A stretch of 64,000 nt of DNA from Bacteroidia bacterium (GTDB taxonomy: Bacteria; Bacteroidota; Bacteroidia; UKL13-3): the NCBI GenBank assembly GCA_023151275.1, contig JAKLJI010000001.1, positions 334,409 to 398,408 of the forward strand, read 5' to 3'. Made by a program: the position numbers and the translations under genes. Each line of letters opens with the position of its first letter. Positions within the stretch are counted from its first letter, which is position 1. Below, piece after piece: positions 12,183 through 54,155 of the stretch. The notes under the pieces are model-generated. The model saw only the letters and a program-made list of their open reading frames with translations. It was not told the DNA's origin and made no database searches.

Positions 12183-12761
12183 ATGAAGAAGTACATTTTT
12201 AGCATTATGGCATTGGCCTTTACCGGGCTTCTGGTTTACAGCTTTACCGAAAGTAAAATTCAACAACCTAAAATCATGGCAGAATCAACCAATTTCTACG
12301 ACTACAGCTTGAAAAGTTTGGATGGAAGCAAAACCTTATCCATGGCTGATTTTAAAGGCAAATATGTGCTTTGTGTAAACGTTGCCAGCGAATGCGGATA
12401 CACCAAGCAGTACGAAGGATTACAAAAACTTCAAGACCTCTACAAAGAGAAATTGGTAATTGTAGGATTTCCCTGCAATCAATTTGGTGGTCAGGAACCC
12501 GGAACAGCAGAAGAAATTGGAGCATTTTGCAAAAAGAACTATGGCGTATGCTTTCCGTTAACCGAAAAAATTGAAGTAAAAGGTAGCGGTCAACATCCCA
12601 TTTACCAATGGTTATGCAAACAAGATTTGAACGGAAAAGCGAGCAATACCGTAAAATGGAATTTCAACAAGTTTTTGGTTGGTCCGGATGGAAATTGGAT
12701 TGCTTATTTTCCTTCAGGCACAGAGCCCATGTCGGCAGAAATTACCAATTTGATTAAGTAA
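12183..12761 (+). CDS. Glutathione peroxidase-family thiol peroxidase
   Basis: A 192-residue peroxidase with an N-terminal hydrophobic segment (residues 3-20) that is either a signal peptide or a membrane anchor, so it probably acts in the periplasm. The peroxidatic residue is Cys about 71 in NVASECGYT (Cys, not selenocysteine). The Gln in CNQFGGQEPG and the Trp and Asn in VKWNFNKFLV complete the catalytic tetrad. Bacterial members generally use thioredoxin rather than glutathione. A strong hairpin terminator follows the gene. Confidence 0.93.
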   Translation: MKKYIFSIMALAFTGLLVYSFTESKIQQPKIMAESTNFYDYSLKSLDGSKTLSMADFKGKYVLCVNVASECGYTKQYEGLQKLQDLYKEKLVIVGFPCNQFGGQEPGTAEEIGAFCKKNYGVCFPLTEKIEVKGSGQHPIYQWLCKQDLNGKASNTVKWNFNKFLVGPDGNWIAYFPSGTEPMSAEITNLIK

Positions 12762-12790: not shown

Positions 12791-12846
12791 AATCTGCGGG
12801 AAACCAGCCCTCTTTTGATTGCATGGTTTCCCGCAGATTTTTTTTG
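12791..12846 (+). terminator. Intrinsic terminator after the peroxidase gene
   Basis: Perfect 16-base inverted repeat: AATCTGCGGGAAACCA at 12791-12806 and its complement at 12824-12839, with a 17-base loop, followed by a run of T. It closes the ispH-peroxidase transcript just before the repeat array. Confidence 0.92.
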
Positions 12847-12881
12847 TTTGATTACCTACACAATTGGCAAAAATGAATACC

Positions 12882-14520
12882 ATCCCGAAAGGATTGAAGA
12901 TTTGAAGGGAAAACATCATTTCGGAAGTTCGACCCCTTCAGGGTCGCGGAATATTGGGACGGAAATTTATTCTATAAACCTGTGACCCTTTCAGGGTCAG
13001 TTGAATTTTAGGAAATCACAAAGCACGTGTTTTAAGCTGATTGGAACTAATTTCAATCCTTGATAAATCCATTTTCTAGTGTCTTTTCCAATCCCGAAGG
13101 GATTGAAGGTTTATTGCAAATGCTGGTTGTATAATACGCTCGACCCTGAAGGGGTCGCAGAAAAACGAAACGGAAATGTATTCTACAAACCTGTGACCCC
13201 TTCAGGGTCAAGATGAGATTCAGACAATCAAAGGGCTCGGTTTTGAGGAGATTGGACATGATTTCAATCCTTGAGAAATCAATCAACCATGAGCTATCTC
13301 CAATCCCGAAGGGATTAAAGGTTTATAGAAATCGAATTGTGAAAAATAGGTTCGACCCCTTCAGGGTCGCAGAAAAACGAAACGGAAATGTATTCTACAA
13401 ACCTGTGACCCCTTCAGGGTCAAGATGAGATTCAGACAATCAAAGGGTTCGGTTTTGAGGAGATTGGACATGATTTCAATCCTTGAGAAATCCATTTTCT
13501 AGTGTCTTCTCCAATCCCGAAGGGATTCAAGGTTTATAGCAAATAAAGTTGGTCAAGTACGATCGACCCTGAAGGGGTCGCAGAATAACCAGATGAGAAA
13601 TTGTCCTACAAACCTGTGACCCTTTCTGGGTCGAGAAGAAACACCGGATAATCAAACGAAACGGCTTTCACCAAATTGGCCCTAATTCCATCCGTTGAGA
13701 AATCAATCAACCTCGAAATCTCTCAAATCCCGAAAGGATTCAAGGTCTATAGAAATCGCATTGTGAAAAACAGGTTCAACCCTGAAGGGGTCGCAGAATA
13801 AACCAGATGGGAAATTGTCCTACAAACCTGTGACCCTTTCTGGGTCTGGATGGAGCATAAGTAATTTAACAGCCCGTGTTTTTTTTGCAGATTTCACAGA
13901 TTCCATTTGTGTCACGAGATAACTTAAACTTTGATTCATAAACCAATTTCTGGCTACCCCAATTCGTTTTGAAATCCAATCTGCTCCATCCAATCCCGAA
14001 GGGATTGAAGGTTTATAGCAAATGCGGTTCGTCAAGTACGATCGACCCCGAAGGGGTCGCAGAATTATCAGATGGGAAATTGTCCTACAAACCTGTGACC
14101 CTTTCTGAGTCTGGATGAGATTCAAACAATCAAAGGGTTCGGCTTTCAGGTGATTGGAAATGATTTCAATCCTTGAGAATTCAATCAACCTCGAAATCTC
14201 TCAAATCCCGAAGGGATTCAAGGTTTATAGAAATAGCATTCTGGAAAATATGTTCGACCCTGAAGGGGTCGCAGAAAAACGAGACGGAAATTTATTCTAT
14301 AAACCTGTGACCCTTTCTGGGTCGAGAAGAAACACCGGATAATCAAACGAAACGGCTTTCACCAAATTGGCGCTAATTCCATCCGTTAAGAAATCAATCA
14401 ACTTCGAAATCTCTCCAATCCCGAAGGGATTAAAGGTTTATAGCAAATAAAGTTGGCCAAATACAATCGACCCTGAAGGGGGTCGCAGAATAATCACTTG
14501 GGCAATTTTTCTATTAACCC
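12882..14520. repeat. Tandem array of eight ~212-bp palindromic repeat units
   Basis: Eight units begin at about 12882, 13090, 13302, 13513, 13726, 13992, 14204 and 14417, with spacings 208, 212, 211, 213, 266, 212 and 213. Each unit has palindrome P1 (AATCCCGAAGGGATT), palindrome P2 (GACCC, 5-base loop, GGGTC, then GCAG) and palindrome P3 (CTGTGACCC...GGGTC). AGGTTTATAG after P1 can pair with CTACAAACCT or CTATAAACCT before P3, enclosing P2. Units alternate between two sequence types. The wider spacing in unit 5 is due to ~54 bases of extra sequence around 13866-13970. The last unit lacks a proper P3. There is no gene within and no transposase nearby; convergent transcription units flank it, each with its own terminator. 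Confidence 0.93.
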
Positions 14521-14611: not shown

Positions 14612-14637
14612 AAAAAAGCCCTCTCGAGGGCTTTTTT
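14612..14637 (-). terminator. Bidirectional hairpin terminator
   Basis: AAAAAAGCCCT, loop CTCG, AGGGCTTTTTT: a short GC stem flanked by A and T runs, placed 30 bases beyond the stop of the leftward outer-membrane protein gene. It can also stop any transcript coming out of the repeat array. Confidence 0.9.
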
Positions 14638-14667: not shown

Positions 14668-16119
14668 TTAGTAGCCTTTGATATGGCTGATATTGAATTT
14701 CAGACCAAAGTTCAAATCAACACCTCTGATTTTGCGCAAACCAAACATTTCCAATACCTGATTCGTACCAATGAAGAATGGTCCATACCGGTAATGAAAT
14801 CCAACCACCGGATATTGGTATTCAATCAACGAAATAGGAACAGACCATTCTGTTTTCACATTCTCATGACGAATAGCAAAGCTGAGGATATTAGCAGCAC
14901 GCGATGAAATAACATCGTTCAACACCACACGTTGGCTTCCAAAGAAACTCAAATACCACATGTCTTTCCAATTGTAATCAAACTGAACATTCAGGCGGGT
15001 TGGCATGTAATGTCTGTATTCGGATTGGGCAGAGAAATTAGCACCCGGAGAGCCAATGAAAGCAAATCGCAATTTTCTATCCAAAGCAAACACACCGTTG
15101 TAGGCTGCATCAATCAAACTATCTACCACAGCATTTACATTTCCATACGTTGTAGCCACGGTTTGTTGATTGAAATTCACCCATCCCAAATCCATTACTG
15201 AAACCCCAAAACGCCATTTGTAGGTTTGGAATTTGCGGATTCTTCCCCCTCCGGCAATATTTGGACAAACCGCATAACTGGAGCGTATTCCTTTTTTCTT
15301 GCGTGTAAAGGTGTAACCTAAATCCAGCGAAAATCCATTTCCACGGGGAGCGAGTAACTCGCTAACATATTTGGATTTGGTTGCAGCATAACCGTACTGA
15401 AAGCCACCATTTTCAACATAAATGGAAGAATCCATACCAAATGTCCATTTGCTGCTTCCATCCCACCAATAAATGGAATTGATACCCACCAAATAATGCA
15501 GGTTCAAGCCAAAACGGTGTGAGTAGCGCTGAGACTCCTTGATAATGGCAGAAAAATTTCCGGCAAAATCAAGCAAAACCAAATTTCCTGAGCGGCTATT
15601 GGCCATGCTCATGGTTTTACCCAGCAAATCGTTGGTTCGATTACCTTTTAGAAGGAAGGTTGCAAGTTCAGGAGTTAATCCATACGAAGAGGAAACATTT
15701 CGCGAAGCGGTGTATAATCCCGCCGAAAACTTACCAAAATTACTATGTACGGAAGGTCCGTAAATTGCAGCTTCTATGTAAGCGTAGTTTGAAGGTTTTA
15801 AGTCCCGACTAATCTGAAAAACCCGGTCAAACTTTTCACTTACGTTTTTCCCTGTATCGGATAAAAATTCGGTTGCCGAACTTCCCAAAAGCGAAGGAAG
15901 AGATTTGGCAGGCATATAAAAGCCGTTATTCAACACCGAAAAATTAAGGCCAACAGGAAGAATTTCTGTACTGTTACTTAACCAGGTAGTGGTTGCAGGA
16001 TTTATCATAGGACCCATAACACCTGCAAAGTTGCTACTGTAAATTCCTGTCTGAAACTGCGCTTGCAGGGGGAGAAGGAACCACAGGCTAACAAGTGTAA
16101 GAATGGATACTTTTTTCAT
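14668..16119 (-). CDS. DUF5723 family outer-membrane protein
   Basis: A 483-residue protein with a Sec signal peptide (MKKVSILTLVSLWFLLPLQAQ). The mature N-terminus reads FQTGIYSSNFAGVMGPMINPATT, the mark of the DUF5723 family of Bacteroidota outer-membrane beta-barrel proteins. The remainder alternates aromatic and polar residues in strands, with K-(K/R)-rich turns, consistent with a FadL/PorV-like barrel. Function is unknown; relatives occur beside motility or secretion genes, but no such link is visible here. A terminator lies directly downstream. Confidence 0.85.
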   Translation of the reverse strand: MKKVSILTLVSLWFLLPLQAQFQTGIYSSNFAGVMGPMINPATTTWLSNSTEILPVGLNFSVLNNGFYMPAKSLPSLLGSSATEFLSDTGKNVSEKFDRVFQISRDLKPSNYAYIEAAIYGPSVHSNFGKFSAGLYTASRNVSSSYGLTPELATFLLKGNRTNDLLGKTMSMANSRSGNLVLLDFAGNFSAIIKESQRYSHRFGLNLHYLVGINSIYWWDGSSKWTFGMDSSIYVENGGFQYGYAATKSKYVSELLAPRGNGFSLDLGYTFTRKKKGIRSSYAVCPNIAGGGRIRKFQTYKWRFGVSVMDLGWVNFNQQTVATTYGNVNAVVDSLIDAAYNGVFALDRKLRFAFIGSPGANFSAQSEYRHYMPTRLNVQFDYNWKDMWYLSFFGSQRVVLNDVISSRAANILSFAIRHENVKTEWSVPISLIEYQYPVVGFHYRYGPFFIGTNQVLEMFGLRKIRGVDLNFGLKFNISHIKGY

Positions 16120-21218: not shown

Positions 21219-21248
21219 TTTGTAATTTGAGCGAAAAAATTACTTTTG
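21219..21248 (+). promoter_or_regulatory. metK promoter
   Basis: TTTG at 21219-21222, 18 bases, then TACTTTTG at 21241-21248: a close match to the Bacteroidota -33/-7 consensus. It places the RNA start near 21254, directly at the 5' edge of the structured leader. Confidence 0.75.
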
Positions 21249-21255
21249 CAGCGCA

Positions 21256-21328
21256 TGAAGAATCAGACTGGGTCTGATGCCAACCGGGCAGAACACCACG
21301 GTGGCAAAACCATGCGGGCATTCTTGTC
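21256..21328 (+). ncRNA. Candidate SAM-binding riboswitch, metK leader
   Basis: A compact structured leader starts at the predicted RNA 5' end and precedes S-adenosylmethionine synthetase. P1 is AAGAAT (21258-21263) with ATTCTT (21320-21325). P2 is CAGAC (21264-21268), loop TGG, GTCTG (21272-21276). The core GATGCCAACC, then CCACGGTGGCAAAACCATGC, resembles the conserved SAM-I/SAM-IV clan core (GCAACC, then GGUG-C-AAA-CC). It is shorter than standard SAM-I. About 80 bases separate it from the metK ATG. The assignment is based on core resemblance and gene context. Confidence 0.6.
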
Positions 21329-21406
21329 AATTTTGTTCTCAACTGATATTGACCAGATTCCTGCTAGTTTATCTTCTAAAAAAAACAACAACTAATCCTA
21401 GCATAA

Positions 21407-51156: not shown

Positions 51157-51158
51157 TG

Positions 51159-51240
51159 TGCGCAAGAGGAGACTCGAACTCCTAAGGGTTGCCCCACTGG
51201 CTTCTGAGACCAGCGCGTATACCAATTCCGCCACTTGCGC
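51159..51240 (-). tRNA. tRNA-Leu (anticodon CAG)
   Basis: On the minus strand an 82-base type II tRNA: acceptor stem GCGCAAG pairing with CTTGCGC, D-arm, anticodon stem CTGGT/GCCAG with loop CTCAGAA (anticodon CAG at its centre), a variable arm with GGGGCAACCC, and a T-arm containing GTTCGAGTC. The long variable arm fits leucine. The terminal CCA is not encoded (discriminator A is followed by CAA). Confidence 0.96.
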
Positions 51241-53849: not shown

Positions 53850-53908
53850 CCTTAAACTGGTTTACCCTATGAAGATCGGAAGATCTGAAACCGAAAACAT
53901 GAAATCCC

Positions 53909-53994
53909 GTCCTCTTTTCCCTACGCAGGCATTATCCTGATCAGGTGAAGGGTATGATCTCAGCCCCTTTCCACATGAAAAGGGACACCCCTAA
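53909..53994 (-). ncRNA. TPP riboswitch (THI element)
   Basis: On the minus strand, the conserved thiamin pyrophosphate aptamer: AGGGGTG at the 5' side, GGGGCTGAGA, ACCCTTCACCTGATC, GGATAATGCCTGCGTAGGGAA. All core motifs are present in order. It lies about 110 bases upstream of the TonB receptor gene and probably represses it when TPP is bound. Confidence 0.96.
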
Positions 53995-54155
53995 AGACGG
54001 CGCAAAACTAAACACCAATCTCAATTTAACAAGTACCAATTATTTTTTCTGACATTTCTAAACCATTTGCCACTTATCCTGTCAAATAAGGTTGTAACTT
54101 ATTTTATGTCTGATGAGAATCAATTTATCGGCATATTTGGAGTCTGATTGCATCC
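53995..54155. other. Divergent intergenic region between two TonB-type receptor genes
   Basis: Holds the 5' part of the leftward riboswitch transcript and the rightward start region of the receptor at 54156. A CATATTTG element near 54133 is one base off the -7 consensus. I see nothing else. Confidence 0.45.

Follow-up and report, generated by a model that had tools for sequence, protein, structure and literature searches.

The repeat array at positions 12877 to 14519 of the window, the 64,000-nucleotide stretch of a Bacteroidia genome analysed here, is best explained as a non-autonomous REP/BIME-like array, mobilised in trans by a transposase of TnpA_Y1 subclass 1.2 and amplified in tandem. 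We put the probability of this reading at roughly three in four. The array is REP-like in its working, yet lies outside the GTAG REP/RAYT family by its tag and by the motif of its enzyme.

Sequence inspection and repeat analysis gave eight units with three palindromes (P1, P2 and P3) apiece, listed in Table 1. An earlier note on this DNA, made from the sequence alone, had claimed eight units of about 212 bp, and both the P1-to-P1 spacings along the array (209, 212, 211, 213, 266, 212 and 213) and the TRF period of 212 bear this out. The three palindromes that it had described per unit are all present, and terminator-like hairpins border the array on both sides as claimed. The stretch had also been called gene-free; the longest ORF inside the array is a repeat-derived frame of 122 aa (13820-14188, minus strand).

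Table 1. Positions in the window of the array, its units and its neighbours
Feature	Position	Strand	Details
Glutathione-peroxidase-like (GPx) gene	12183-12761	+	Convergent with the next gene; name from sequence impression
Terminator-like hairpin and T run past the GPx gene	12792-12846	+	Found by eye; loop too long for the scan
Whole array	12877-14519	.	Eight mosaic units; phase-locked 53-nt palindrome ladder
Unit 1	12881-13089	+	Most degenerate; P1 ~12881, P2 12930-12946, tag 12972-12981, P3 12983-12999
Unit 2	13090-13301	+	P1 13089-13105, P2 13141-13157, tag CTACAAACCT 13183-13192, P3 13194-13210
Unit 3	13302-13512	+	P1 13302-13316, reverse tag 13319-13328, P2 13353-13369, tag 13395-13404, P3 13406-13422
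Unit 4	13513-13725	+	P1 13513-13527, P2 13564-13580, P3 ~13618-13632
Unit 5	13726-13991	+	266 nt = 5 x 53; extra 53-nt step beyond P3 (~13832-13846)
Unit 6	13992-14203	+	P1 13991-14007, P2 14043-14059, P3 ~14097-14111
Unit 7	14204-14416	+	P1 14204-14218, P2 14255-14271, tag 14297-14306, P3 ~14309-14323
Unit 8	14417-14519	+	Truncated right behind degenerate tag CTATTAACC; P1 14417-14431, P2 14468-14485
Terminator-like hairpin, right border	14612-14637	-	Terminator scan
Gene for a 483-aa protein	14668-16119	-	Convergent

In the array 18 palindromes could be detected, with centres from 12938 to 14424. The intervals between them are 52, 53, 106-108, 160 and 214 nt, and all 18 keep one phase at a period of 53 nt (R=0.99). 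The unit of 212 nt is therefore 4 x 53, and the 266-base spacing, previously taken as an exception, is real but remains on the ladder as 5 x 53, with one step added. At the fourth 53-nt step of a unit there is no palindrome, or only a decayed one. Fitted separately, the locking period was 53.1 nt for the window array and 51.9 nt for the array on contig C4 (R=0.99 for both), and 57.0 nt for that on C20. Phase-locking inside one array is partly expected, because tandem duplication alone repeats, and so inflates, the phase; independent support for the ladder is the hairpin spacing across species, given below.

The earlier note held that the units alternate between types A and B, with a dimer of about 424 bp as the true period. 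In the unit alignment, the P1-P2 spacer does alternate in units 2-8, but the other segments and the whole units do not follow it. For the P2-P3 interval, units 2, 3 and 7 form one group and units 4, 5 and 6 the other; for the linker behind P3, unit 4 matches unit 7 (95% identical) and units 2, 3 and 6 fall together. The excess of lag-2 over lag-1 identity was not significant for whole units (permutation p=0.21), and for the P1-P3 core the permutation gave p=0.11. The spacers of the C4 array, which a two-cluster run did not separate, were classed by eye and read A,A,A,A,A,A,B,A,B, without strict alternation. As the segments group differently, the array is a mosaic and not a 424-bp A/B dimer; the dimer as true unit is ruled out by the segment-wise comparison together with the C4 array, and the suggestion of mosaic linkers and mosaic copying is upheld by the regrouping of segments between units.

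The module that recurs in this array consists of a 10-nt tag, with the consensus CTAYNRAYNT, starting 18 nt ahead of the loop of a short hairpin; the invariant part of the tag at this position is CTA[CT]. In the window array the tag takes the form CTATAAACCT or CTACAAACCT, and no tag can be recognised at the P2 palindromes. Modules are found in both orientations. The long-range pair AGGTTTATAG/CTATAAACCT described earlier is indeed present, but it represents inverted copies of one 10-nt tag, each preceding a palindrome. A fixed composite unit made of such an inverted tag pair was considered across species and rejected: the distances between inverted tags range from 104 to 203 nt, so the composite is not general.

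As to the folded unit that had been proposed, its palindromes fold, but whole units folded as single-stranded DNA (DNA parameters) were only modestly better than shuffles, with z values of -2.5 and -2.0; what is conserved is the individual hairpin module and not the whole unit. These fold scores, the convergent flanking genes and the nine terminator-like sites in the array region, against 3.0 in shuffles, would suit an intergenic region that gives rise to a structured RNA or to a series of small RNAs or terminators. Such a role is nevertheless extremely improbable, as the search of 12.3-15.0 kb gave no Rfam match at gathering score, the promoter scan of the array region gave a single promoter-like site, below the level of shuffles, the modules lie in both orientations, and the conserved part is a single hairpin with its tag, associated with a DNA transposase. 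The tRNA search found none inside the array. Elsewhere in the window there are a SAM-I/IV riboswitch (21248-21344, plus strand) upstream of a gene resembling S-adenosylmethionine synthetase, a TPP riboswitch (53901-54002, minus strand) and a tRNA-Leu (51158-51240, minus strand).

Copies of the module elsewhere, for which the earlier note had called, were found in about seven clusters of this genome as well as in relatives. By pattern search, the tagged palindrome with at most one mismatch occurs at 39 sites, located only in clusters on contigs C4, C8, C11 (the window), C18, C20, C44 and C75; at up to two mismatches the true pattern gave 58 sites and the reversed pattern, used as control, 7. 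Several of the arrays sit at contig ends. On C4, a two-gene module lies between two palindrome-array blocks (L032, 481-942) and looks, from its sequence, like an antitoxin-toxin pair of the RelB/RelE type. The modules are gathered in few clusters instead of being dispersed singly, and local amplification therefore matters as much as transposition.

Two Y1_Tnp genes are present in this genome. That on C44 (L034, 4032-4493), the only gene of its type in the genome, has modules of the window type on both sides, while palindromes of a different kind, CTATGGACTTCGCCCATAG and CGCCCCTTCGGGGC, adjoin the gene on C75 (L049, 1870-2310). The C44 enzyme matches PF01797 (E=2.5e-27), and its catalytic residues are intact, with the HUH motif as DHIH and the tyrosine motif as Y115-Q119-H122H123. 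Both proteins, P0001 from C44 (YIENQKEHH, DHIH, WQ, 153 aa) and P0002 from C75 (YISNQHEHH, DHVH, WQ, 150 aa), have the combination Y---Q--HH, DH[IV]H and WQ, and are thereby assigned to TnpA_Y1 subclass 1.2. The RAYT model NF047646 scored 23.6 and 20.2 bits, short of its cut-off of 80, and the NCBIfam model NF033573 for IS200/IS605 transposases scored 72.8 bits against a cut-off of 55. The predicted structure of the C44 enzyme (pLDDT 87.5) matched the transposase-hairpin complexes of ISDra2 and IS608 and the REP-associated transposase 4er8 in the PDB.

From the NCBIfam name, given above cut-off, and the palindromes on both sides of the gene, one could take the locus for the remains of an IS200/IS605 insertion sequence, its palindromes being multiplied ends. 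The ends of IS200/IS605 elements have one subterminal hairpin each. Here a ladder of many hairpins lies on either side of the gene, further arrays stand alone, and the genome has just one gene copy of the C44 type, all of which make this reading very unlikely.

The phylum was scanned with the two proteins, giving 80 loci; genes like that on C44 are referred to as clade I and genes like that on C75 as clade II. About 40% of the sampled phylum genomes (121/296) contain a relative of P0001. Hairpins are dense near these genes, at 3.2-3.5 per kb within 250 bp, and fall to about 0.5 per kb past 1 kb; in a paired comparison the density was 3.22 per kb, against 1.33 per kb in the remaining intergenic DNA of these loci (paired Wilcoxon p=9e-4). 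At 17 of 77 loci one and the same stem occurred on both sides of the gene; 2.3 such loci were expected, and 2000 permutations never gave more than 7.

The tag had been derived by eye from the training loci (L050-L081) and was therefore tested on 28 new loci as a hold-out. Near clade I genes, 48 of 68 tags in the training set were followed by a perfect 5-bp stem at the fixed register (far flanks, 3/24; scrambled tags, 0/34), and in the hold-out 38 of 52 tags preceded a perfect stem (far flanks, 1/13; three scrambled tags, 1/42). Counted by locus, tag plus stem was present at 18/29 training and 14/28 hold-out clade I loci, 32/57 combined, against 1/48 clade II loci, 0/20 class 2 Y1 genes and 1/29 far flanks; the strict combination was missing at the other 25 of the 57. 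A hairpin step of 48-57 nt was found at 21/29 and 22/28 clade I loci, respectively (43/57 combined), and at 9/48 clade II loci, 0/20 class 2 Y1 genes and 0/29 far flanks. The class 2 controls were taken from related genomes and treated alike, except that fixed flanks were used for 3 of the 20, whose gene was unrecognised by motif. Among the hairpin intervals of the hold-out, 65 of 162 measured 48-59 nt, where shuffles expect 0.33. The stems themselves differ widely between loci: in a set selected for perfect stems, 32 loci had 29 distinct 5-bp stems between them, so the structure is kept while the sequence changes. At some loci (L059, L069, L192 and others) two or more different tagged stems adjoin one gene.

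Repeated palindromes thus flank subclass 1.2 genes at most clade I and many clade II loci. Hairpins with the CTAYNRAYNT tag adjoin the clade I genes; clade II (L049, L082-L129) has a conserved palindrome doublet of its own, GCCCTGAAAGGGC ... CGATGGGCATCGCCCATCG, spaced by 60-71 nt and detected at 22/48 clade II loci and at no clade I locus. In G150, a complete genome from another family, arrays with periods of 412 and 435 nt and partly tagged palindromes stand alone, away from the transposase gene (L214 and L215; C1:1050500-1056500 and 3117500-3124000), and a third array with a period of 354, near a clade I gene, closely resembles that of the window in its AATCCC-, CGACCC- and tagged palindromes. 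The module of G072 is present at only two sites, both adjoining the gene, and large stand-alone arrays are therefore not universal. Three subclass 1.2 genes (L052, L090 and L103) were found in bins labelled Acidobacteria, Methylococcaceae and Thalassobius, owing to either binning error or transfer.

A locally expanded satellite, formed by recombination and slippage only, with the transposase gene as a bystander or inserted into such DNA, would agree with the strong mosaicism, the tandem structure and the clustering of copies. We consider it unlikely, since the same architecture with different sequences lies beside the relatives of the enzyme throughout the phylum and not at class 2 genes or in far flanks, and since the same stem is found on both sides of the gene. 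The transposase gene could, however, have landed in pre-existing arrays instead of making them. The step of about 53 nt, equal to about five helical turns, raises the further idea of a DNA-architecture element, which would bring all cruciforms or protein sites to the same side of the helix and have a role in the nucleoid or in supercoiling. The phase-locking of the window and C4 arrays and the 48-57-nt step at clade I loci fit this idea, but the C20 array is locked at another period, near relatives do without the array, and the spacing could equally stem from the substrate geometry of the enzyme; a role of this kind is scarcely credible.

For the reading as a transposase-mobilised array, the cognate enzyme would be the C44 Y1/HUH single-strand transposase, which is itself flanked by the same modules, and the array was presumably mobilised by it. 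If it works as IS608 and TnpA_REP do, the enzyme would bind the folded hairpin on single-stranded DNA, for instance on the lagging strand, and make its cut at the CTA that is invariant in the tag, or close to it. This CTA is the best candidate for the cleavage site, since cleavage by REP enzymes takes place at CT dinucleotides (PMC8266576). Copies would then be inserted in trans, and recombination or slippage between modules may have produced the amplified and shuffled mosaic units of 212 nt. A broader proposal, towards which we are more doubtful than inclined, is that the CTAYNRAYNT ladder of about 52 nt (about five helical turns) constitutes a further REP-like superfamily, on which subclass 1.2 enzymes act all across the Bacteroidota; the step would then reflect excision and insertion of the single-stranded module by the enzyme, and tandem arrays would arise directly from transposition, not from later recombination.

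The site of the array can be compared with that in relatives. The order ispH-GPx is kept there, and in G005 and G009 the orthologue of the 483-aa protein gene directly follows GPx without an array, the two flanking genes, again convergent, being separated by about 10-35 bp; in three genomes of the same genus a ComF-like gene directly follows GPx. As the site is nearly devoid of sequence in relatives, the array is a recent gain in this lineage. It lies between convergent genes, beyond their terminators, and the space between convergent genes is a common location of REPs (PMC3733652).

Subclass 1.2 was described in 2018 without a known DNA partner. From the present data a partner can be proposed, namely tagged hairpins repeated at a fixed step, and its sequence lends itself to direct testing by the cleavage assays established for REP systems. 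Given that relatives of P0001 occur in about 40% of the sampled genomes, this association likely accounts for many unexplained intergenic palindrome arrays in Bacteroidota.

In the published survey, subclass 1.2 is found in Bacteroidetes and Cyanobacteria at low copy number, generally has no IS200-like ends, and is listed as 'REP: no' (Quentin et al. 2018, PMC6006769). The present enzymes agree in DH[IV]H, WQ, Y---Q--HH, a length of about 150 aa, low copy number and occurrence in Bacteroidetes, but repeated palindromes flank both genes of this genome and many of their relatives, which departs from the published description. Since 'REP: no' is a reported absence and not a sequence criterion, the motif-based assignment stands. 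With IS200/IS605 elements such as IS608 and ISDra2, the C44 system shares the fold and catalytic residues of the enzyme, and also the layout of a hairpin with a putative recognition sequence upstream of it on single-stranded DNA. Instead of a simple unit of one left end and one right end in several identical copies, however, there are many hairpins per side, stand-alone arrays and a low copy number. Among palindromic repeats, the GTAG and CGTC super-families comprise tagged palindromes in dimers and clusters, the CGTC repeats being present in Bacteroidetes with no known transposase (PMC3733652). Neither tag fits the present module, which lacks GT[AG]G at the hairpin foot and has CTA[CT] 18 nt ahead of the loop, and here a transposase adjoins. 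RepRanger counts REPs in three Bacteroidota genomes, with transposases unmentioned (PMC12306157), and in the open-access literature no description of a link between subclass 1.2 and palindrome arrays was found.

The closest comparison is with REP, BIME and REPIN sequences and their RAYT (TnpA_REP), together termed the 'REPtron' (PMC6006769, PMC8266576). The differences are a CTAYNRAYNT tag set apart from the stem, in place of GTAG at the hairpin foot, a fixed ladder of about 52 nt, and Y---Q--HH in the C44 enzyme in place of the Y---NP of RAYT (class 2). The likeness lies in short extragenic palindromes with a conserved unpaired tag, arranged in direct or inverted pairs and in mosaic clusters, which flank a single-copy Y1/HUH transposase gene and also stand alone elsewhere in the genome as non-autonomous clusters, that of the window, as with REPs, between convergent genes. 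The array, which the earlier note had not recognised as any described system, thus belongs with the palindromic repeats that flank Y1 transposases, in a REP/BIME-like layout.
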